Assembly: GCA_020354555.1 (NCBI GenBank)
Contig: CP070648.1
Location: forward strand, 3,751,601-3,793,107
DNA length: 41,507 bases
DNA from: Armatimonadota bacterium
GTDB lineage: Bacteria > Armatimonadota > Hebobacteria > GCA-020354555 > CP070648
Direction of reading: 5' to 3'
Shown here: positions 4,007-16,383 of the stretch, piece by piece
Layout of the letters: each line of letters opens with the position of its first letter
How positions within the stretch are numbered: the stretch's first letter is position 1
Translations under genes and position numbers: made by a program
The notes under the pieces: model-generated
Database searches by the model: none
The model's input: the letters and a program-made list of their open reading frames with translations, nothing else
Told to the model about the DNA's origin: nothing

Positions 4007-6655
4007 CTATCTCGCCAGGGCGCCTGTGTTCGCGGCGTTGCCCCGCGCGCCAGGCCAGGGACGCCGGTCTTTCATTTCCGCCGCAAGCGAGAAGCAGTAG
4101 AGCCGGCTGTCGGTGCCGCCGACGACGAGCTCAAGTGATCCGTCATCATTGACATCTGCGACCAGGGGCGTCGTGGCGACTTTGTCCCGCGCATCGAACT
4201 GCCACAGGAGATCCCCTCGGCTGTCGAGGCAGTGAACCACCCCGCCGGTATCGCCGAGTACGATTTCGAGGCTACCGTCGCCATCGAGGTCGGCGACCGC
4301 CGCCGCGCTTTCGGTCGTCGCGGCGACTCCCGCGGTCCACAGTTCGGCGCCGTCGCTGCGAATGCAGTAGATGCCACCCATGCCGTCGCCCGCGAAGATC
4401 TCCGGTTTGCCGTCACCCGTGACATCACCCGCGGCGAGCGTCGCGTCGAGCGCGCCGCGGACCGGGAATCGCCAGACCTGTCCCCCGTCGGTCCCGGAGA
4501 CGGCCGTGACGCTGCGGTCGGCGGAGGCGAAGATAACCTCCATGTGCCCGTCGCCATTGAGATCGGCAATGACCGGGCTCGAGTTGGCCGCGCCGCCGCA
4601 TCGCCATACCCAGCGCAAGCTGCCGTCAGGCTCATAGCAGCGGATGATGCCGTCGTCGCAGGGGAACGCCACTTCCAGCTCGCCGTCCGAATCCACATCG
4701 CCGACCGCCGGCTGGCCCCCGGCGTTGCCGCCGAGCGCATGACGCCACAGAACCTCGCCATCGGCGCTCACGCACGCCGCGAACCTCTCGCCGCTCACCG
4801 CGATCTCGGGCGTGCCGTCGCCGTCGAGGTCGGCGATCGCCGGGCCGCCCCACTCCGCGCGGCCATCGAGATCCGCCCGCCACAGCAACTCGCCCGCCGA
4901 ACTGAGCGCGAGCAGACCGCCGTCGTTGGGCAGCGCGACGATCTCCGACTTCCCGTCGCCATCCAGGTCCGCGACTGCCGGATTGGAGTTCATGGCGCCG
5001 GCGAGGTGATAGCGCCACTTCTCGCGGCCTTGCCCGTCGAGGCAGAAGATGTCCTGCCAGCGCCCCGCCCCGATAATCTCCGTCTTGCCGTCGCGGTCAA
5101 CGTCCGCCGTGACGCAGGAACTGTATATCGGCGAGCCCGCCTCGTAAGTCCACGCGAGCGGCGGGCGCACGGTGGCCGTCACGACCGCCGGGGCGGCGAA
5201 TGTCTTGCCTTCCACCCGAATGCGGCAATCGGCGCGCAGGACGCAGCGCCCGAGGCGCGCGTTCCGTCCGGCGCGGATGCGCCACCCCGTCATGCTCTGA
5301 TGGGTGCCATCGTAGGCCACCTTGTCAAAGCGGGCCGGCCGGGCGGACCAACCATCGGGAAGGCGCCAAGCAACGTCCGCTATCCGTGCCCCGGGCAGGG
5401 CTGACGTCACCCAGATCTTAACGGTCTCGCTTCTCCCGGGCGCCAACGACACTTCGCGCGGATAGACCTGCGCTGCAGCGCGGTGGATGGCATTGCTCCC
5501 CAGGCCGGTCACATATGTCACCGACGGCGTCAGCTCGACCGTCACCCGCGAGCCACGCACCGGCAAGGGCGCGCCGTATTGATCGAGGAGCTTCACGCCG
5601 TTCCCGCGCGCACCCAACGTCACCGTACTCTTGCCAAACGGACGCCAGAGCGCAGCCACTGCGCTGTCGGCATCAGCGAAGATCACCCCGTAGTCCGGCC
5701 ACGCGAGGGGCAGGAAACCGACGGGCTTGCGCGCGCCGATGACGTCGGTGAGGGTCTCGCACGCGCGGTACGCCGGTCGCAGCCCGTCGCCGCGCGACAG
5801 ACCGTAGCCGCCGCCCCAAGCGTACCATATGTGCACGGCGTTCCCCAGCGCCCAACTGATGAGCGTGGACCGCGCGAAGTAGTTGGCGTGCCATGCCTCA
5901 TCGGTCGGCGTACGCGGATCGTCGGGCAGGGACCAGCCTTCCTCCGTGATCCACACCGGCATGTCGGCCAGCCCGTACGTCGCGAGCAGTTCGCGGACCC
6001 GGTAGGCGGTCCGTGGTTGCCCCGCCTCGGGCATCGGGCGATAGGGATGCAGCGACAGCGCGTCCATGTAGCGCCCGGCGCCGAGGGCGAAGATCGCCTC
6101 GAGGTACGGCCAATCGAGCCTGCCCACGGCCGCTATGGAACCGCCGATGACGATAGCGTCGGGGTTGGCGCGCTTGATGCCAGCGTACGCTTCGCGCAGC
6201 ATCTCAACGTAATGGGCCGGGTTCGGCTCGCCGTGCCAGAAGCCGCCGAGGTTCGGCTCGTTCCATGCTTCGAACGCGTCTATGCGTCCCGCGTAGTGCC
6301 GCGCGGCTTCGAAGGCGAAGCGACCGTAGTCCTTGAACTCGGACCGCTGGTCCGGCTGCTCCTCTCCGTCCCCCCAGTAGCCGGGCCAATAGCAGAGGAT
6401 CGGCAGTATGTTCAGGCCGGCTTGCTCGCCGCGCTCGACGACGCCATCGTACCACGCCCAGTCGAACTTCCCCGGCTCGGGCTCGGCGCTCGACCACGTC
6501 AAGTCGTGGCGCGACCACCCGATGCCGGCTTCGACCATGGTTGGGTAGTCGCCGCCGTGGCACATGCCGAGGCGGTAGTCGGGCTTCGCCTGTCCAGGCA
6601 AAGCGCAAGCCGCCAAGGCCGCCGAGACGAGCCACGAGAGAAGCAGTAATCGCAT
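4007..6655 (-). CDS. Secreted glycoside hydrolase fused to a beta-propeller with FG-GAP-type repeats
   Basis: An 882-residue exported enzyme. The N-terminus is a signal peptide with a possible lipobox, LAAC (Cys17), so it may be a lipoprotein; ordinary cleavage after GQA is the alternative. Residues 27 to about 330 form a clan-A glycosidase TIM barrel. FEAWNEPN carries the likely acid/base Glu133, and VWITEEGWS the likely nucleophile near Glu238. A linker/beta domain follows. From about residue 560 there are eight repeats, each with a calcium-type DxDxDG loop (DVDRDG, DLDGDG, DVDSDG, DLNGDG, DVTGDG and so on) alternating with PQQ-like LLW strands, suggesting an eight-bladed propeller. The frame continues upstream to 7030, but ATG 6655 has GGAGGAG nine bases before it and begins the signal peptide. 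It heads the galK operon. GH family number and substrate are uncertain (GH39/GH5-like). Confidence 0.9.
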   Translation of the reverse strand: MRLLLLSWLVSAALAACALPGQAKPDYRLGMCHGGDYPTMVEAGIGWSRHDLTWSSAEPEPGKFDWAWYDGVVERGEQAGLNILPILCYWPGYWGDGEEQPDQRSEFKDYGRFAFEAARHYAGRIDAFEAWNEPNLGGFWHGEPNPAHYVEMLREAYAGIKRANPDAIVIGGSIAAVGRLDWPYLEAIFALGAGRYMDALSLHPYRPMPEAGQPRTAYRVRELLATYGLADMPVWITEEGWSLPDDPRTPTDEAWHANYFARSTLISWALGNAVHIWYAWGGGYGLSRGDGLRPAYRACETLTDVIGARKPVGFLPLAWPDYGVIFADADSAVAALWRPFGKSTVTLGARGNGVKLLDQYGAPLPVRGSRVTVELTPSVTYVTGLGSNAIHRAAAQVYPREVSLAPGRSETVKIWVTSALPGARIADVAWRLPDGWSARPARFDKVAYDGTHQSMTGWRIRAGRNARLGRCVLRADCRIRVEGKTFAAPAVVTATVRPPLAWTYEAGSPIYSSCVTADVDRDGKTEIIGAGRWQDIFCLDGQGREKWRYHLAGAMNSNPAVADLDGDGKSEIVALPNDGGLLALSSAGELLWRADLDGRAEWGGPAIADLDGDGTPEIAVSGERFAACVSADGEVLWRHALGGNAGGQPAVGDVDSDGELEVAFPCDDGIIRCYEPDGSLRWVWRCGGAANSSPVIADLNGDGHMEVIFASADRSVTAVSGTDGGQVWRFPVRGALDATLAAGDVTGDGKPEIFAGDGMGGIYCIRSDGAELWTAGVAATTESAAAVADLDGDGSLEIVLGDTGGVVHCLDSRGDLLWQFDARDKVATTPLVADVNDDGSLELVVGGTDSRLYCFSLAAEMKDRRPWPGARGNAANTGALAR

Positions 6656-6810
6656 GAGACCGGTCTCCTCCTCAGTGTCGCGGTAGCAACTTCTGCGCGG
6701 TGGCAATGCGTCCCTTGCGTTGGCGCCTTCAAGCGCGTCCGGATACGCTCCGCTGACGTGCCCCGTCAATCTCATATCGCCCTGCTGCTGTGGAATAAGC
6801 CGATGGAGCA

Positions 6811-6832
6811 GCCGGAGCGCCTTCACTCCGGC
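6811..6832. repeat. Small inverted repeat before the HEAT gene start
   Basis: GCCGGAG (6811-6817) and CTCCGGC (6826-6832) form a perfect 7-bp stem with an 8-base loop. It ends 10 bases before the chosen start codon at 6843. The place normally occupied by a ribosome-binding site holds this structure instead. The start codon itself lies in the 10-bp palindrome ATGACGTCAT (6843-6852). Either could be an operator or a translation-control hairpin, or chance in GC-rich DNA. Confidence 0.3.
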
Positions 6833-6842
6833 GCGAAATGTT

Positions 6843-9140
6843 ATGACGTCATCCGAGGACCGCCCGAGCGGGACCGCGCAGGCGGACATGGTGCTGCGCG
6901 CCCTGGACGAACTCGTGCGCGCTGCGCGCCAATGGTCCCTATACGGCAGCGAACATCGGTTAACGCGAGAGGCGTGCGATGCCGCCGCGGAGGCCCTGGT
7001 TGCCATGATGTCCGAGCGCAAGCAATTCACGCTCGCGGTAGCCGAGTCGGGGCTAGTGGCGGAGGGCGAAGAGCTGCCTGATCACGCGCCGCTTCAGCAG
7101 CTGCACGAGGCGATCAGCCGTCGTCAGATCGCCGCCGTCACCGTTCGCCCCGGCCTCACCCGTGGCGAGGTAGCGGCCGTCATCAGCGTCCTCGCGACCG
7201 ACCCCGACGAACTGCTCGAGCGAGGTGGCGCCGGGCGCGTCCTCAGCGAAGCCCAATGCCCACACGTTGACTTGACCGATGTGGACTATGGGCGCCTGGT
7301 GCCGGAGTCGCAGGCCGAGTGGATGTCTACCTTCGCGGGCTCTGAGATCGGCATCCAGGCGTCGGTGCAGAACCTGGCCAGCATTTGTTTGGACGCTCTG
7401 GGAGACCGCGTCGCCACGACCCAAGGCGGTCCGGCTTCGGACCGCGGGGTGCCCATGCCTTTTCCCATACCTGTCATCGAACCGAAGGATGGCGATGCGG
7501 AGTCCGAGGAATCGTCCCTGGAGGAGCAAGTTGGCGCCCTGCCCGACGTGTCGCCCGAGGACTATGTCGCGGTCGGGTTAGCGTGGCTTATACAGGCGAG
7601 CGGCGAGGCCGTGCTGGAGAGTCCTTCAAAGGTGCGCCGAGCGTGGCGGGAAACCGTCGCGCAGCGCGTCGCAAGCATCGATCTGCCACTGCAAGCACGC
7701 ATCTTCCGCGCCCCGCGCCAGGCTGGGAGCACCGCCCCCGACATGCTCGCCGCCCTCGCCGCCGACCGCTCGCCGGAGCAGATAGCGGATCTCATTCTAG
7801 CTCGACCTGCCGCTGTCGTTGGGGAGCCGTCAGGCTCTCTCGAGCGCATCCTGCGGCGTACCCTTACCGACGAACGCAAGCTCCTGGCGCTTGAGCCCCT
7901 GCTGCGCGAGCGCCTGATGGCGCGCGGAATGAGCCAGGACAGCTTCCGCAACGTCGTCGGGTTACTTCTCGATCAGATCGCGACTGACATGGCGATGCGC
8001 GTCGGCGGAGCCGTCGAGTGGATCGGTGACTTCGAGGATCTACCGCCCTCCGAGGGAGGCACCGTCGAGCAATGGCCCGAGCTGCTCAAGACGATCTCCC
8101 GGGAAGCCGTGGCGAAGTCGAGGGCGAGCATCTTGCTCAGCATGCTCAAGCACGATCTCGACGCCGCGCATTACCTCGATCTGGTCGGGCACATCGAAGC
8201 GTGCGCGACAGAGCGCGCGGCTGCGAACGATCCCGGCGTGTTGGACATCGTGTGCTCGCTGGCCGCGGAAGTGGATGCGGGCGATCCTACCAGATCTCCC
8301 ATCGCCAAGGCCGGCCTCGAGCGTTTAGCCACGCGAGAGATCGCGCACGCGATGAGAGCGGCTCTGGAGAAGGCATCCGCCGAGCAGCGCCTGGAACTCA
8401 TCGCCGTCATTGGCAAGATGGGTAACGAGTGCGCCGCAATTCTGCTCGAGCAAATCGAGACGGCAGAGGACCACCAAGTGCGGGCCGTGGCGGCGCGCTG
8501 TCTCGCCGAGGCCGGCGAGCGAGGAGCGTCGGAGGTCCGTCATCTCCTGGCACAAGGTCCGTTCGACGTCGCGATGTTTACGGCGGCGGCGCTCGTCGAG
8601 GGCGGCGACGAGCGATTCCTGAGCCTGCTCGCGGCCGGGTTCGATCACCGGCAGCCGGCGGTGCGCATGCGGCTCGCGGAGTGGCTCGGCCGCATCCCGG
8701 GCCTGGCAAGTGAACAACTCCTGATCCGCGCGCTGTACGACGAGGATCCGGATGTGCAGGCTCGCGCGGCGGAGAGCCTGGGAGCGCTGGGTGCCACCGG
8801 CGCTGTGCATGCGCTGAGCCTCGCAGCCAAGAAAGGCCCGCTGCACGGGCGTGCGCTCGAGGTCAGGAAGGCGGCGATCGAGGCGTTGGGCAAGCTCGGC
8901 TCGCCGGAGGGCGTGCCTGTTCTCGAAGAGATAGCGCGCAAGCGCAGCCTGCTGTTTCGGGACCGGACGCACGAACTGGCCGCACTGGCGGCAGCGGCGC
9001 TGGCGTGCATAGCCGGCCCGGAGGCGGAGCGCGCCCTCGCGGAGTGCGGCCTGAGGCAACGGGATATCGCGCGCCCACAGGACGGCGACGCGCCGACGAT
9101 CTCGGCGCCGGGGCTCGAAGGGAGACGCGGTCATGGCTGA
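6843..9140 (+). CDS. HEAT-repeat protein with an N-terminal domain shared with the downstream HD-GYP protein
   Basis: A 765-residue soluble protein with no signal peptide. The first 150 or so residues resemble the N-terminus of the next gene. Paired landmarks are LYGSEHRLT against FYPPEHPQV, and EVAAVISVLATDPDELLERGG against EVSELIKVLTTDPDEVSDQGG. The C-terminal half has alpha-helical HEAT repeats, for example VRAVAARCLAEAGE, VQARAAESLGALGA and VRKAAIEALGKLGS. HEAT arrays are usually protein-binding scaffolds. The stop overlaps the start of the HD-GYP gene by 8 bases, so the two are probably translated together. The ATG at 6843 is chosen because the upstream extension in the same frame looks non-coding. 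No good ribosome-binding site is visible. A biochemical role cannot be assigned. Confidence 0.85.
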   Translation: MTSSEDRPSGTAQADMVLRALDELVRAARQWSLYGSEHRLTREACDAAAEALVAMMSERKQFTLAVAESGLVAEGEELPDHAPLQQLHEAISRRQIAAVTVRPGLTRGEVAAVISVLATDPDELLERGGAGRVLSEAQCPHVDLTDVDYGRLVPESQAEWMSTFAGSEIGIQASVQNLASICLDALGDRVATTQGGPASDRGVPMPFPIPVIEPKDGDAESEESSLEEQVGALPDVSPEDYVAVGLAWLIQASGEAVLESPSKVRRAWRETVAQRVASIDLPLQARIFRAPRQAGSTAPDMLAALAADRSPEQIADLILARPAAVVGEPSGSLERILRRTLTDERKLLALEPLLRERLMARGMSQDSFRNVVGLLLDQIATDMAMRVGGAVEWIGDFEDLPPSEGGTVEQWPELLKTISREAVAKSRASILLSMLKHDLDAAHYLDLVGHIEACATERAAANDPGVLDIVCSLAAEVDAGDPTRSPIAKAGLERLATREIAHAMRAALEKASAEQRLELIAVIGKMGNECAAILLEQIETAEDHQVRAVAARCLAEAGERGASEVRHLLAQGPFDVAMFTAAALVEGGDERFLSLLAAGFDHRQPAVRMRLAEWLGRIPGLASEQLLIRALYDEDPDVQARAAESLGALGATGAVHALSLAAKKGPLHGRALEVRKAAIEALGKLGSPEGVPVLEEIARKRSLLFRDRTHELAALAAAALACIAGPEAERALAECGLRQRDIARPQDGDAPTISAPGLEGRRGHG

Positions 9141-10563
9141 TGTCACCGGCACTGCCTCGCCCGCCTCCGACCGCGAGATGGTCCAGGACGTCGTCAACGC
9201 GTTGAGCCGGGCGATGAAGAACGTCACGTTCTACCCGCCCGAGCATCCGCAGGTGGCGGAGATGACCGCCGAGGCGGCGCGCGCTGTGGGCCGTGCCGTG
9301 GCGCGCGGGGAATGCTTGATCAAGTTCATCGGGGCCAACGTCGTGCTGGATGACCGCCCGCTGTTCGACATGACGAGCTCCATCGGCAGCCTGGTCGGAG
9401 CGTGTCACAATCGTGGGATAGACGCCGTCACATTCGTGCCGGGCGTCAAGCCCAACGAGGTGAGCGAGCTGATCAAGGTGCTGACCACGGATCCGGACGA
9501 GGTGAGCGACCAAGGCGGTGCGTCGGCGGTGCTCGGCCGACGCGGGGTGACGCACGTGTCGGTGGATGCGCTGCAAGCGGTGGCGGAAGGAGCGCAGCGC
9601 CGCAAGCCGACGTCGCTGGCCCGAGGAACCTACGCGGGCGCGCTCGACGTGATGCGTGGCGCGGTGCGTCGTGCCGGAGCGGAGGCACCGCTTAACATCG
9701 AAGGCGCGGAGCGCGCCGTTGATCGGCTCATAGACGCCATCCTGCGCGAGCAGTCCGCAATGCTCGGTTTAGTGTCGGTGAAGAACTACGACGAGTACAC
9801 GTTCACGCACGCTTTGCACATCTGCATCCTGTGCCTGGGGCTCGGGCACGCGATCGGCCTGTCACACGACAAGCTCAAGGAGTTGGGCATCGCCGCCCTG
9901 CTGCACGACGTGGGCAAGGTGTTCGTGCCCCTGGAGATCCTGCGCAAACCCGACAAGCTCACGCCGGAGGAGTTCAAGGCAATCGCCCGTCACCCTGTGG
10001 ATGGCGCGCTGCTCCTGTTCCGCCAGGAGCGCGCGCCAGCAGTGGCCCCCGTCGTGGCATTCGAGCACCACATTCAATGCAACGGCACTGGCTACCCTCA
10101 GGTCAACGGCTCGTGGGAACTCAATCTCTACAGCCTCATCGTGAGCATCGCGGACGTCTACGATGCGCTGACCACCGAGCGCCCGTACCGCCCGCCGCTC
10201 TCGCCCGAACAGGCTCTGGAGATGATGCACGAGTCGCGGCGGGGCCAGTTCGACGAGCGGCTCCTGGGGCGGTTCACCGAGATGCTCGGCAAGTACCCGG
10301 CCGGAACGCTCGTGCGCCTGAGCAACGGTGACCCGGCCATCGTCTCGCGCCCCAATCCCGCCAACGCGGCACGGCCCTTCCTGCATCACATCGTCACCGA
10401 CGACGGTCGCGTCACGCTCGGCGGGGATGAGTTGGACACGACGCAGCGCGACCCGGAAACCGGGGAGTATGTCCTGAGCATCGTGCAGGTGCTCGACCCC
10501 GTCGCGGAGCGGATTGAAGTTGCCAGTTTGCTCGGCCAACTGGCGCAGCGCGAAACCACCTGA
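9133..10563 (+). CDS. HD-GYP domain protein (candidate cyclic-di-GMP phosphodiesterase)
   Basis: A 476-residue cytoplasmic protein. Residues 1-150 are the domain shared with the preceding HEAT protein. Residues 205-360 are an HD-GYP domain: LLHDVGKVFVP with the HD pair at 258-259, then KPDKLTPEEF, IARHPVDGA, EHHIQCNGTGYP near 311-322, and IADVYDALTTERPYR. HD-GYP enzymes hydrolyse cyclic di-GMP. The metal ligands and GYP are present, although the usual Glu after HH is Ile here. A C-terminal extension of about 100 residues follows. The start ATG at 9133 has GGGAG seven to eight bases upstream. It overlaps the HEAT gene and lacks a REC domain, so input probably comes through the N-terminal domain or the HEAT partner. 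Confidence 0.92.
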   Translation: MADVTGTASPASDREMVQDVVNALSRAMKNVTFYPPEHPQVAEMTAEAARAVGRAVARGECLIKFIGANVVLDDRPLFDMTSSIGSLVGACHNRGIDAVTFVPGVKPNEVSELIKVLTTDPDEVSDQGGASAVLGRRGVTHVSVDALQAVAEGAQRRKPTSLARGTYAGALDVMRGAVRRAGAEAPLNIEGAERAVDRLIDAILREQSAMLGLVSVKNYDEYTFTHALHICILCLGLGHAIGLSHDKLKELGIAALLHDVGKVFVPLEILRKPDKLTPEEFKAIARHPVDGALLLFRQERAPAVAPVVAFEHHIQCNGTGYPQVNGSWELNLYSLIVSIADVYDALTTERPYRPPLSPEQALEMMHESRRGQFDERLLGRFTEMLGKYPAGTLVRLSNGDPAIVSRPNPANAARPFLHHIVTDDGRVTLGGDELDTTQRDPETGEYVLSIVQVLDPVAERIEVASLLGQLAQRETT

Positions 10564-10777: not shown

Positions 10778-10975
10778 TTACGCCATTTCCCCCAACTCGC
10801 CATAACGGCTGAGATCGTGCCGGTGGCGGCGATTGAGCAGTTCGTCAATCTCGGGCGACGCATCCTGCGGCGCCACGCCGAAACACTCCTGGCACTTTAT
10901 CTTCACCGCGCCGTCGAGGTAGCGGGGAAGCTCGACTATCAGGGCGCCACAGCTTGAGCAGCGCACCTTGGTCAT
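10778..10975 (-). CDS. Small zinc-ribbon protein, function unknown
   Basis: A 65-residue protein. CSSC and CQEC, about 24 residues apart, form a four-Cys zinc ribbon, followed by an acidic/basic helix ending RYGELGEMA. It is monocistronic, with its own intrinsic terminator at 10724-10750. The start is uncertain: AGGAGGT directly abuts ATG 10975 with only one spacer base, so the GTG four codons later (10966) may be the true start. ATG 10987 or 11020 would add an N-terminal tail without a ribosome-binding site. No family is recognised. It may be a nucleic-acid or protein-binding regulator. It lies between the HD-GYP gene (convergent) and the deacetylase gene (divergent). Confidence 0.75.
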   Translation of the reverse strand: MTKVRCSSCGALIVELPRYLDGAVKIKCQECFGVAPQDASPEIDELLNRRHRHDLSRYGELGEMA

Positions 10976-11153
10976 ACCTCCTGCCATGTCGTGATTACTA
11001 TTCCACATGGGCATATACATATTTGACAGTTCTTGGGGTTAAATAAACCTCCCGGGTGGCATGGCGGCCGCCAATGGCAACGCGCCGGGCGCGCCATCTG
11101 GGGCCCGAGGGGAGGGACGAGCACCCGCGGAGTCGAAAGCTACGTGGGAATCC

Positions 11154-12160: not shown

Positions 12161-12552
12161 TCGCGCACCGGCTCGCGCCGCGCGGAGACTTTGCGGATTC
12201 CTGCCGTAAGCGGGGTCCTTGGATCAACGCGGGGGCGAAGTCGGGCGGATCGTGCCCGACGACCCCATCCCGGAGGACCCCTCGGACGACGCGGCTGCGC
12301 CGCGCCTGAGCGCGGCAGGCGCACGGCTTCCGCAGCGCTTGCAGACCGGTAATGCTTGCGGCGCCGCGGGGAGTATGGACAGCGGGCCCGGCGACGCCGG
12401 GGAGACCGATCCGGAGCGGAGCCCCGGTGCGGGGGCGGCGCAAGCGACGCTCCGCTGATGCCGAGAATTCTCTATCTCTCATGTGGGCCGGTACGGGCAC
12501 GGCCCCAGCGTGGGGCGGCGGCAGCAGGTCGAAGCCTGGGCACTCATCTCAA
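12161..12552 (+). other. Leader or intergenic region before the histidine kinase gene
   Basis: About 390 bases of very GC-rich DNA with no gene I can support. An open frame at 12219-12458 begins with TTG, lacks a ribosome-binding site and has a composition-driven sequence. If the kinase starts at the alternative ATG 12481, the last 72 bases are coding. I see no convincing sigma-70 promoter or terminator. Confidence 0.4.
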
Positions 12553-14562
12553 GTGTGGACGATACGCGCTAAGCTGGCCGTTATCATGATCATGGCGCTG
12601 GCGCCGCCGATGGCGGTGCTGTCGCTCGGCACGACGCGTCTGATGCTGAGTACGCTCCAGCGTCAGGCCGACGCGACGCTCGGCTACGTCACCGACCAGA
12701 ACGCCATTGCCATCAACCGCGACCTGTCCGACCTGCGCACGCTGGTTGATCAAGGCGCGGAGCGCATCCAGCAAGCGGTAAGCACCGCGCTCGCGGAGGG
12801 GGCGGTTGGGGACCTCATCGCCCAAGGGCGGCATGAGGCGGCCGGCACCCGCCTCGCTTCCGCATTGCAGCCCTCGCGCACGAGCATGATCACCGTGCTC
12901 GACAGACGAGGCCTGGTGATTGCCCGCGCGACCCATCCCGCAGTTCACGGCGACCGCATGCTGTGGCATCAAGGCCAGGACACGGAGCCATACGTGACCA
13001 ATCTGCGGCCGTCGGTGCGTGCAGCATTCGCCGGACGTGAGACCACCGGGATCGTCGTGCTCTCGACCGCCGCCCTACGCGCGGAGAAGGTCACTCCCAG
13101 CTCTGTCGTCGCGGGCGTGACCGAGCCCGGCGGCGGGTTGAACGATCAGGCGGCGATTGCGCTGCCGAGCGGACGCAAGCGCGAGTCGAGGGGTATGGCG
13201 GTCGGAGCCGTGCTTCCGCTGCGCGATCGGCACGGAGTCATTCGCGGGGTCGCGGTGGCCGCCCAAGTCCTGAACCGCCGTACGGAGTTGGCAAAGGCGT
13301 ATCGCCACCTGACCGGACGCCGCATGGCCGCCTGCCTCGGGAGCGTCGTGGTCGCGGGAAACCTGCCAACCGACGGCGCGGGGAGCGCGGGAGACGTGAT
13401 GTTCCATGAGTGCGCGGCCCCGATCCTGGACGAAGGCAAGCAGCGCTGGACCGGGCGCCTGCATTCGACCGGCGTTGACCTCAACGCCGCCGCCAGCGCG
13501 CTGCGCGACGTCAACGGCACCGCGGTAGGCATGCTCGTCACCGCGTCGCCGGTGACCGAGCTGCAGCGAGTGGTTGATAACATGCAGGCCGATGCCGCCC
13601 GGTTGCGGAGCCGCGCGCTGATCGCGCTGCTGGTGTGGGTTTCGGTGGGTGCCGGACTCGCATTGATACTGGCCGCACTGGCTGCGCGCGGGATCACCCG
13701 TCCCATCCAGCAGCTCCAGGCGGGCGCTCGCCGGATCGGCGAAGGGGATTTCTCCTATCGGCTGCGAGTGCGCAGCGGCGACGAACTGGAGCAACTCGCC
13801 TCCGAGTTCAACCAGATGGCGGAACGTCTGGCGCGCGCCCGCGACGAGGAGCGCCTCGCGGTTATCGGCCGCACGGCAAGCAGCATCGTCCATGACATCC
13901 AGAACACCCTGACCAGCATCCGCGGCTACGCCCCACTCCTCGCGGAGGACGATTTGCCCTCAGATCAGCGAAAGGAGTTCGCCGCCATCCTGGTCGAGTC
14001 GGTGCAGCGCATCGCCGATATGGCGCACGACCTCTTGGAGTTCGCACGCGGCGAGGAGGCGAAGCTCGATCTGCGAGCCATAACCGTGGATCAGTATCTG
14101 ACCGAACTCAGACCACACCTCGAGCGTGACTTCCGCGAATCAAGCATTCGCCTCGCCTTCGATCTCGATTGTCCGACGCCCGTGCGCTTGGATCCCGGGC
14201 GCATGAACCGGGTCATCTTCAATCTCGCCGTCAATGCCCGCGACGCGATGGGCGAGACGGGAGTGTTTACCATCACCAGCCGCTGCGAGCGCGGCTACGC
14301 CGAGATCCGCTGCTCCGATACCGGGCCGGGGATAGCGCCGCAGATGGCAGGGCGGCTATTCCAACCATTCGTGAGCTTCGGCAAGCCGTATGGCACTGGC
14401 CTCGGGCTTGCCATCTGTAAGCAGGTGGTCGAGGCCCACGGGGGCACGATCGAGGCGCGCTCCGAGCCGGAACAAGGGGCGACTTTCATCCTGCGCCTCC
14501 CCCTGGTCGAGACCGTGGAGACGCAAGGCGAAGGAGACGGCGACGCCGCGGCCGACGGCTGA
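12553..14562 (+). CDS. Membrane sensor histidine kinase (orphan)
   Basis: A 669-residue protein. The first transmembrane helix is at residues 5-28, followed by an extracytoplasmic sensor of about 320 residues, probably double-CACHE-like. A second helix lies near 353-376. A HAMP domain with RPIQQLQ and the GDELEQL turn follows at 379-430. The dimerisation/phosphorylation helix has IVHDIQNTLTSIRGY with likely phospho-His447. The HATPase domain has an N box NLAVNARDAM, G1 DTGPGIA and G2 GTGLGLAICK. It autophosphorylates and passes phosphate to a response regulator, but none is encoded in this window. GTG 12553 is chosen because WTIRAKLAVIM is a typical kinase N-terminus. ATG 12481 is the alternative, and neither has a ribosome-binding site. 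An alkaline-phosphatase-superfamily gene follows. Confidence 0.9.
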   Translation: MWTIRAKLAVIMIMALAPPMAVLSLGTTRLMLSTLQRQADATLGYVTDQNAIAINRDLSDLRTLVDQGAERIQQAVSTALAEGAVGDLIAQGRHEAAGTRLASALQPSRTSMITVLDRRGLVIARATHPAVHGDRMLWHQGQDTEPYVTNLRPSVRAAFAGRETTGIVVLSTAALRAEKVTPSSVVAGVTEPGGGLNDQAAIALPSGRKRESRGMAVGAVLPLRDRHGVIRGVAVAAQVLNRRTELAKAYRHLTGRRMAACLGSVVVAGNLPTDGAGSAGDVMFHECAAPILDEGKQRWTGRLHSTGVDLNAAASALRDVNGTAVGMLVTASPVTELQRVVDNMQADAARLRSRALIALLVWVSVGAGLALILAALAARGITRPIQQLQAGARRIGEGDFSYRLRVRSGDELEQLASEFNQMAERLARARDEERLAVIGRTASSIVHDIQNTLTSIRGYAPLLAEDDLPSDQRKEFAAILVESVQRIADMAHDLLEFARGEEAKLDLRAITVDQYLTELRPHLERDFRESSIRLAFDLDCPTPVRLDPGRMNRVIFNLAVNARDAMGETGVFTITSRCERGYAEIRCSDTGPGIAPQMAGRLFQPFVSFGKPYGTGLGLAICKQVVEAHGGTIEARSEPEQGATFILRLPLVETVETQGEGDGDAAADG

Positions 14563-14664
14563 CGGCGGCTCCCCCAGTCGCCGGTGAGCATCCGTGAGAG
14601 GACTGGCGGCGACGACGGCGAAGCGAAGCACATCACCGAAGATGCCGAGAGCCGCATAGCCTTC

Positions 14665-16383
14665 ATGCAATCACCTCACGTCAAGCCCGCCGGTCGCCCG
14701 CGCGTGCTCATCATCGGCCTTGACGGCGCGCCCCCGGCACTCGTGGAGCGCCTCGCGGCGGCGGGAGTAATGCCTAACTGCGCCCGGCTGCTGCGCGAGG
14801 GCGCGTTCGGCATTCTGCGTTCGACCCCGAACTACAACAGCTTCTCCGCGTGGTGCTCGTTCATGACCGGCGTCAACCCGGGAAAGCACGGCATCTTCAA
14901 CTTCCTGAACCGCATCTCAGGCACATACGACCTGCGCCGCGTGCACAGCGGCATGCGTCAGGTGCCGTCCGTTTTTCAGATCCTCAGCGACGCCCGTAAG
15001 TCAGTGATCTCGCTCAACGTGCCGTCAACGTACCCGGCGGAAGAGGTGCGCGGGCTGGTCGTCGCCGATTGGATGACGCCGTCGGTTCGCAGCGAGGGCT
15101 TCACCTACCCGGCCGAGTTGGCGGCCGAATTGCTGGCGGCGACCGGCGGCGAGTACCATTTGCATACCGAGGTGCGCAAACCGGCGTTGTCCCGTCGTTA
15201 CGATCAAGCCTTTCGCAATCTCGCGGATTCCTTCCGCAGCCGCCTCGCAGCGGCGGAGTTCTGCTTGCGCCGGGTGGACTGGGATGTCGCCGCCGTCGTC
15301 TTCACCGAAACGGACGCGGCGAATCACTACTTCAGCCATTTCGACCGCGATCATCCCCAGCACGACTGCCGCGCGTTCGACAAGTACGGCGACGTGCTCG
15401 CCGGCGCTTACGCCGAGGCCGACGCCGTGATCGGGCGGCTGCTGGCGCACGTCGACGAGAATACGACGGTCGTCATCCTGTCGGATCACGGGAGCTGCCC
15501 GGAATCGCGCGGCAAGGCCTTCACGCGCGGCATTCTGGAGGCGATCGGCGCCCTGACACCGCGGCGCGGGGGCGCCTTGAGCCCCGTCAAGTCGCTTCGC
15601 TCCGCTGCGGCGCGGGCAGGCAAGCGTTCCTTCGAGGCGCTCAACCGCATGCTCCCGCGCGGCCTCAAGATGCGCCTGGACGAGCGCTTCCGCGGCCTCT
15701 CCCACCGCATGATCGCGGGGTCCTTTATCTTCGACGTGGACTGGGCGCACACGACGGCATACTGTTATTACTGGGACACCGACCCGTACGTGAATCTGCA
15801 GGGGCGCGAGCCACACGGCATTGTGCCTCCCGCCGAGTACAACGCCGTGCGCGACGGCATCGCCGAGCAGCTCCTTGCGGCACGCGACGCAGCGACCGGA
15901 CGACCCGTGGTGAAACACGTGCTGCGATGCGAGGACGCGTATCACGGGCCGTGCGCGGACAGTTCGCCGGACCTCATCGTGTGGTGGGACGATACGGGGC
16001 CGATTGAGCGCATTCGACTGGGCGACTCCGCCGACGGCACCCCCGACGCGCTGCCTTCGACAACGCTGTGGGATGTGGTGACGGGCGGACATCATCCCGA
16101 CGGCACGGTGATCCTGTGGGGCAGGGGCGTGCGACCCGGTTGCTCATTGACCGGCGCCAACATCATGGACATTGCCCCGACCACGTTGCACTTGCTCGGC
16201 GAGCCGGTGCCGACCAACATGGATGGCAAGGTGCTGACCGACGCGCTCGTCGCCGGGCTCGCGGAGGTCAGGCACAGCGCCGGAGCCGAGGCCGGCGTGG
16301 CGGAAGCCGCGCCCGACGAGGGCTACTCCGACGAGGAACTGGAACTCGTTGAGAAGCGGCTACGCAACCTGGGCTATCTGTAA
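14665..16383 (+). CDS. Alkaline-phosphatase-superfamily phosphodiesterase/nucleotide pyrophosphatase-like protein
   Basis: A 572-residue soluble protein of the type I phosphodiesterase/nucleotide pyrophosphatase group. RVLIIGLDGAPP gives the first metal Asp. NSFSAWCSFMTGVNPGKHG matches the nucleophile region, with Ser where many relatives have Thr. FTETDAANHYF and VVILSDHGS give further metal ligands. The C-terminus EKRLRNLGYL is the tail common in this superfamily. No signal peptide is visible, so it is probably cytoplasmic. ATG 14665 is preferred. A GTG at 14584 would add 27 polar residues, and neither has a clear ribosome-binding site. It lies about 100 bases after the histidine kinase gene and may share its transcript. 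Substrate unknown. Confidence 0.85.
   Translation: MQSPHVKPAGRPRVLIIGLDGAPPALVERLAAAGVMPNCARLLREGAFGILRSTPNYNSFSAWCSFMTGVNPGKHGIFNFLNRISGTYDLRRVHSGMRQVPSVFQILSDARKSVISLNVPSTYPAEEVRGLVVADWMTPSVRSEGFTYPAELAAELLAATGGEYHLHTEVRKPALSRRYDQAFRNLADSFRSRLAAAEFCLRRVDWDVAAVVFTETDAANHYFSHFDRDHPQHDCRAFDKYGDVLAGAYAEADAVIGRLLAHVDENTTVVILSDHGSCPESRGKAFTRGILEAIGALTPRRGGALSPVKSLRSAAARAGKRSFEALNRMLPRGLKMRLDERFRGLSHRMIAGSFIFDVDWAHTTAYCYYWDTDPYVNLQGREPHGIVPPAEYNAVRDGIAEQLLAARDAATGRPVVKHVLRCEDAYHGPCADSSPDLIVWWDDTGPIERIRLGDSADGTPDALPSTTLWDVVTGGHHPDGTVILWGRGVRPGCSLTGANIMDIAPTTLHLLGEPVPTNMDGKVLTDALVAGLAEVRHSAGAEAGVAEAAPDEGYSDEELELVEKRLRNLGYL

Follow-up and report, generated by a model that had tools for sequence, protein, structure and literature searches.

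The window, that is, the whole 41,507-nucleotide stretch of Armatimonadota DNA that was analyzed, carries two adjacent genes on the forward strand, encoding a HEAT-repeat protein and an HD-GYP protein that begin with the same N-terminal domain (N domain; Table 1). The upstream product matches the Pfam family HEAT_2 (PF13646; E 2.6e-17, 63.3 bits against a cut-off of 27.7), and the downstream product matches PF13487 (E 2e-25) and HD_5/HD (89.9 bits), in agreement with the initial annotation, which had described one domain fused to HEAT repeats in the first gene and to an HD-GYP hydrolase in the next. The 8-base overlap of the two frames, also claimed there, is borne out by the positions of the HEAT stop codon and the HD-GYP ATG. 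The ATG at 6843 is a plausible start for the HEAT gene, the same frame being open further upstream. AlphaFold models of the HEAT and HD-GYP proteins reached pLDDT values of 84.8 and 89.2, respectively. The C-terminal beta domain of the HD-GYP protein is kept in relatives and gave a weak match to a MazF-like SH3 barrel (Z 6.9 over 75 residues). No Rfam RNA, riboswitches included, was found in the window, and no sigma-70-like promoter was matched near the pair.

Table 1. Features of the HEAT/HD-GYP locus (window coordinates)
Feature	Positions	Strand	Description and basis
HEAT protein CDS	6843..9140	+	765 aa; ORF; N domain, variable helical region, C-terminal HEAT solenoid
Shared N domain, HEAT protein	6903..7271	+	residues ~21-143; BLASTP/phmmer to partner, profile matches, secondary structure
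HEAT-repeat alpha-solenoid	8064..9044	+	residues ~408-734; Pfam, AlphaFold helices, structural match to alphaRep
Overlap of both reading frames	9133..9140	+	8 bases; HEAT stop ends 9140, HD-GYP ATG 9133
HD-GYP protein CDS	9133..10563	+	476 aa; ORF; N domain, helical linker, HD-GYP, small C-terminal beta domain
Shared N domain, HD-GYP protein	9193..9561	+	residues ~21-143; BLASTP/phmmer, profiles, AlphaFold
HD-GYP domain	9793..10260	+	Pfam; invariant or near-invariant columns
C-terminal beta-rich domain, HD-GYP protein	10300..10560	+	residues ~390-476; AlphaFold strands 393-453

The pair stands head to head with a divergent gene (4007-7030, minus strand) whose secreted-looking product combines a glycosyl-hydrolase-like part with FG-GAP/beta-propeller repeats. 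The pair is separated from a YdjC-family gene by an 80-aa ORF (10778-11020, minus strand) with two CxxC motifs (CSSC...CQEC), possibly a zinc-ribbon protein. Farther along are a membrane-type histidine kinase gene (12352-14562, plus strand; weak sCache, HAMP, HisKA, HATPase) and, next after it, a type I phosphodiesterase/nucleotide pyrophosphatase gene (14584-16383).

Over their N-terminal ~145 residues the two proteins are homologous, as had been proposed from the matching peptides EVAAVISVLATDPDELLERGG / EVSELIKVLTTDPDEVSDQGG and LYGSEHRLT / FYPPEHPQV, all of which were found and align without frame problems. BLASTP returned 42 identities over 131 positions (32%, E 3e-10) with two gaps, each of a single residue, phmmer gave an i-Evalue of 4.9e-14, and the local alignment scored 139, whereas the best of 2000 shuffles reached 56 (z about 19.6). 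Iterated profile searches recovered 134 copies of the domain in the first locus set, 68 of them in HD-domain proteins and 66 in proteins lacking one, and seeding from either window protein led to the identical set. Profiles built from the HD-linked and HEAT-linked copies matched at 99.7% probability over 124 columns, a result that is supportive rather than independent, both sets having been gathered with related profiles. Independent support is provided by the two AlphaFold models, which were made from separate alignments and show, mostly at confidence above 80, one order of elements (helix-helix-strand-strand-helix-strand-helix-helix-helix-strand): H10-33 H39-56 E61-66 E69-72 H82-93 E98-101 H107-118 H121-126 H130-136 E142-145 in the HD-GYP protein and H10-34 H39-56 E62-66 E71-73 H82-93 E96-101 H107-118 H121-126 H130-136 E142-146 in the HEAT protein. 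The structural similarity on which the initial annotation had staked its claim is therefore present. Helices 1 and 2 are joined by a Y(P)xxHP-like loop, the hallmark of the domain, in which the Tyr is conserved in more than 90% of copies.

Neither window protein matched a named Pfam or NCBIfam family above cut-off in this region, nor did Pfam name a family for any of 61 copies that were each run by themselves. Fold searches with the full-length models of both proteins returned match lists filled by HD and HEAT folds. A PDB sequence match to the designed protein Octarellin V.1 (E 1e-4, 38 positions) was taken as chance, and a UvrD helicase match (L114; loci in our collection are numbered with the prefix L) was rejected as a false positive. 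The domain was absent from the plasmid records searched.

The HD-GYP metal ligands of the window protein, H226, H258-D259, H287, H312-H313 and D341, are all present, as are the D220/K262 pair and G320-Y321-P322, the GYP motif following the HH within HHIQCNGTGYP (312-322); across 74 relatives these positions are invariant or near-invariant. Every metal ligand is kept in the window protein and in 88 of 101 pairs. At the position four residues ahead of the first His, where the trinuclear (E/D-T-G) signature has Glu or Asp, the window protein has Tyr222 (Y-T-F), which aligns with the third-metal-bridging Glu of PmGH. This places it in the Y/F subgroup of HD-GYP proteins, proposed to be binuclear by Bellini et al. 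(PMC4159591). Among solved structures, the nearest folds are those of Bd1817, PmGH, the DvhD HD-GYP domain and PA4781. The top profile match is V-cGAP3, a cGAMP enzyme, followed closely by PmGH, which acts on c-di-GMP, so the sequence does not single out one substrate. We regard the protein as probably a metal-dependent, two-metal (Y/F) cyclic-dinucleotide phosphodiesterase acting on c-di-GMP, with 3',3'-cGAMP as a possible substrate. The genome encodes seven GGDEF domains, so the substrate could be made there. Known HD-GYP phosphodiesterases (PmGH, 4mcw; PA4781, 4r8z; Bd1817, 3tm8; V-cGAP3, 5z7c) share the fold and metal ligands and are the best sequence and fold matches, but they have GAF, REC or PAS where the window protein has the unnamed N domain, and PmGH has the third-metal Glu where the window protein has Tyr. 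Further differences are the extra C-terminal beta domain and the obligate-looking HEAT partner gene.

For the HEAT solenoid, the best structural matches were designed alphaRep binders, followed by PP2A-A, importins and other scaffolds. The predicted fold thus points to a scaffold or binding surface, without naming a target. By analogy with PP2A subunit A, which like the alphaRep proteins is an alpha-solenoid of HEAT repeats, the HEAT protein might possibly serve as the scaffold subunit of a phospho-hydrolase. Unlike PP2A-A, however, it is bacterial and has an N-terminal alpha/beta domain in common with the enzyme, and beyond the repeat type we found no sign of common descent. A second comparison is with RpfG of Xanthomonas, an HD-GYP protein that works through a PilZ adaptor and GGDEF partners; the likeness lies in an HD-GYP protein acting through protein partners, whereas the partners and domains are others and no N domain is shared.

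The HEAT/HD-GYP pair is a real, widely conserved unit, and conservation in relatives was the other test that the initial annotation had set for its proposal. Under a strict adjacency rule, public-genome loci and whole-genome searches yielded 99 adjacent pairs from several phyla, with the HEAT gene upstream in 99/99 and the reverse order in none. With the best HD start chosen automatically, the HD start overlaps the HEAT stop in 38 of the first 72 pairs and lies within 30 bases of it in 57. Pairs occur in Desulfobacterota (Syntrophaceae and others), Nitrospirota, Myxococcota, Actinomycetota (Coriobacteriia), Planctomycetota, Krumholzibacteriota and the window's own phylum. The N domain itself was detected in 102/247 (41%), 75/118 (64%), 66/113 (58%) and 44/119 (37%) of the sampled Desulfobacterota, Nitrospirota, Myxococcota and Planctomycetota genomes (the phyla of L049, L037, L072 and L080, respectively), and in 23/291 genomes of the window's phylum. 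Where the genome lists seemed to show one gene on its own, the surrounding region mostly revealed a pair. Exceptions are HEAT proteins without an HD partner (L113, L115, L120, L121, L133, L134, L138), lone HD proteins (L116, L117), one genome in which the two genes are unlinked (L123/L124), and some loci interrupted by contig ends or a frameshift.

A second, diverged pair is found in the window's genome about 310 kb away (HEAT at 4068226, HD-GYP at 4070486), and the two HD proteins share 36% identity. In a tree of 81 N domains, which rests on few columns, HEAT-type and HD-type copies are mostly separate (8 changes against a shuffled mean of 32.7), and the branching within the two groups is alike. 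For both proteins, L091 falls together with the window pair and L097 with the second pair (L090), indicating that pairs were duplicated and inherited as units. One ancient split between HEAT-type and HD-type N domains appears likely from the tree, with a single HD-type clade lying close to the limit of rejection (p-AU 0.042). Because linked genes co-diverge anyway, we did not take mirror-tree or covariation signals as proof of contact; the matched trees are explicable by linked inheritance alone, without any contact between the proteins.

Two further observations bear on whether the products work together. In eight Myxococcota pairs (L169, L173, L174, L178, L179, L180, L181, L182) a Ser/Thr kinase domain precedes N-HEAT, and in 8/8 of these the HD-GYP ligands are gone from the N-HD partner while the gene pair is still present. 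Among the 93 other pairs, the N-HD protein is degenerate only in L166, L177 and L183, and it is cut short in L083 and L089. This pattern was spotted post hoc in eight probably related pairs from one phylum that may all stem from one event, and we claim no significance for it. It does show that the HEAT/N-HD partnership persists there without catalysis; the persistence of pairs with a dead HD argues that the N-HD protein is also a subunit and not merely a free enzyme. Separately, one Myxococcota metagenome assembly contains a single ORF, N-HEAT-N-HD, without an intervening stop and with the GYP motif lost (L151:4490-8035). The fusion had no match in 33 related genomes, and it could be true or the product of an assembly error or sequencing indel.

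On balance, we think it probable that the two genes encode one signaling complex, in which the HEAT protein would be the scaffold or regulatory subunit of the phosphodiesterase, docked through the shared N domains; we infer binding, docking, regulation by the HEAT protein and the substrate. The N domains would join the two chains as an evolved pseudo-homodimer (a heterodimer), and the HEAT solenoid would bring in whatever sets or localizes phosphodiesterase activity (a partner, a target or an input signal), and hence where or when the cyclic dinucleotide is degraded. Translational coupling through the overlapping frames would suit matched output of the two subunits. Consistent with such a complex are the homologous N domains, the fixed order, paired duplication, the L151 fusion, the pairs with a dead HD and the intact ligands; against it stand the lone HEAT or HD proteins, the genome with unlinked genes, the occurrence of the fusion in a single assembly and the perhaps single origin of the kinase-fused pairs. 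The initial annotation had suggested a dimerizing or inhibiting partner. Strict pairing and order, paired duplication, the fusion and the dead-HD pairs lend this idea indirect support, and do not distinguish inhibition from activation.

The main rival, which we consider unlikely, is that the N domain senses a ligand or signal as an input common to both proteins, so that one operon would answer to one signal with no complex formed. The domain does occupy the usual place of a sensor in other proteins: it is N-terminal, adjoining PAS, in a histidine kinase (L122), and it also occurs with REC-SpoIIE phosphatases (L163, L164), with kinases and with GGDEF-AAA proteins. Against a shared sensor stand the strict one-to-one pairing of HEAT and HD genes in fixed order and the pairs that persist with a dead HD partner. 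In Planctomycetota, N domains repeated in tandem within one protein are more suggestive of a built-in dimer, and a conserved pocket in the N domain was not identified.

That the HEAT protein specifically inhibits the enzyme, as in an enzyme-inhibitor pair, fits the strict linkage and the upstream, possibly translationally coupled position of its gene. We nevertheless give this idea a small chance, as inhibition is indistinguishable here from activation or localization, and cannot be the role in the kinase-fused pairs, where the HD partner is already inactive. Those same degenerate partners, and the joining of the N-HEAT module to kinase and GGDEF-AAA outputs, would suit an N-HD protein that is mainly a cyclic-dinucleotide receptor subunit controlling the HEAT protein, with catalysis secondary; the retention of all metal ligands in the window copy and in most partners makes this improbable. 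Simple tandem duplication that left two related but independent proteins would explain a shared domain in adjacent genes, and is scarcely credible given an arrangement kept across several phyla and N domains that fall mostly into a tree group of their own type.

The components of the favored complex are of known kinds, and their combination is new: our searches of open-licence PMC texts found no description of the HEAT/HD-GYP pair, in line with the earlier remark that no such unit was known under a name. Recurrence in the same order across at least six phyla suggests an undescribed signaling unit of an enzyme and a regulatory subunit. Explanations of HD-GYP enzymes usually rest on the sensor domains fused to them, and a widespread form made of two chains, one of them a dedicated HEAT subunit, would, if true, add a mode of regulation. 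A function for the N domain would also annotate many proteins now listed merely as 'HEAT repeat' or 'HD domain', and the change from active enzyme to inactive partner upon fusion of a kinase to the HEAT protein opens the scaffold idea to direct test.

More tentatively, and with less confidence than for the complex itself, the N domain may be an undescribed assembly domain of a multi-phylum system joining Ser/Thr phosphorylation to cyclic-dinucleotide turnover on HEAT scaffolds. The HEAT/HD-GYP pair would be its commonest form and the kinase-HEAT protein with a dead HD-GYP partner a derived one, in which the former enzyme is now a regulatory subunit. The proposed parts are kinases, SpoIIE phosphatases and FHA on the phosphorylation side, and GGDEF-AAA and HD-GYP proteins on the cyclic-dinucleotide side. 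The domain is found in a kinase-N-N-DUF4388 protein (L165), an HD-N-FHA-DUF4388 protein (L162) and a protein with a weak GGDEF match that adjoins a Ser/Thr kinase gene (L126). GGDEF-AAA_16-N-(N)-HEAT proteins are encoded at L112, L152, L154, L159 and L160, and a kinase-GGDEF-AAA-N-N-HEAT protein at L158. Large proteins (1184-2145 aa in frame) that carry two N domains in tandem and finish in a HEAT part were identified at L152-L158, L167 and L168; those scanned with Pfam (L152, L154, L158) also contain GGDEF and AAA_16, with a kinase in addition in L158, and sometimes several such proteins are encoded in a row, as with the three in L155.
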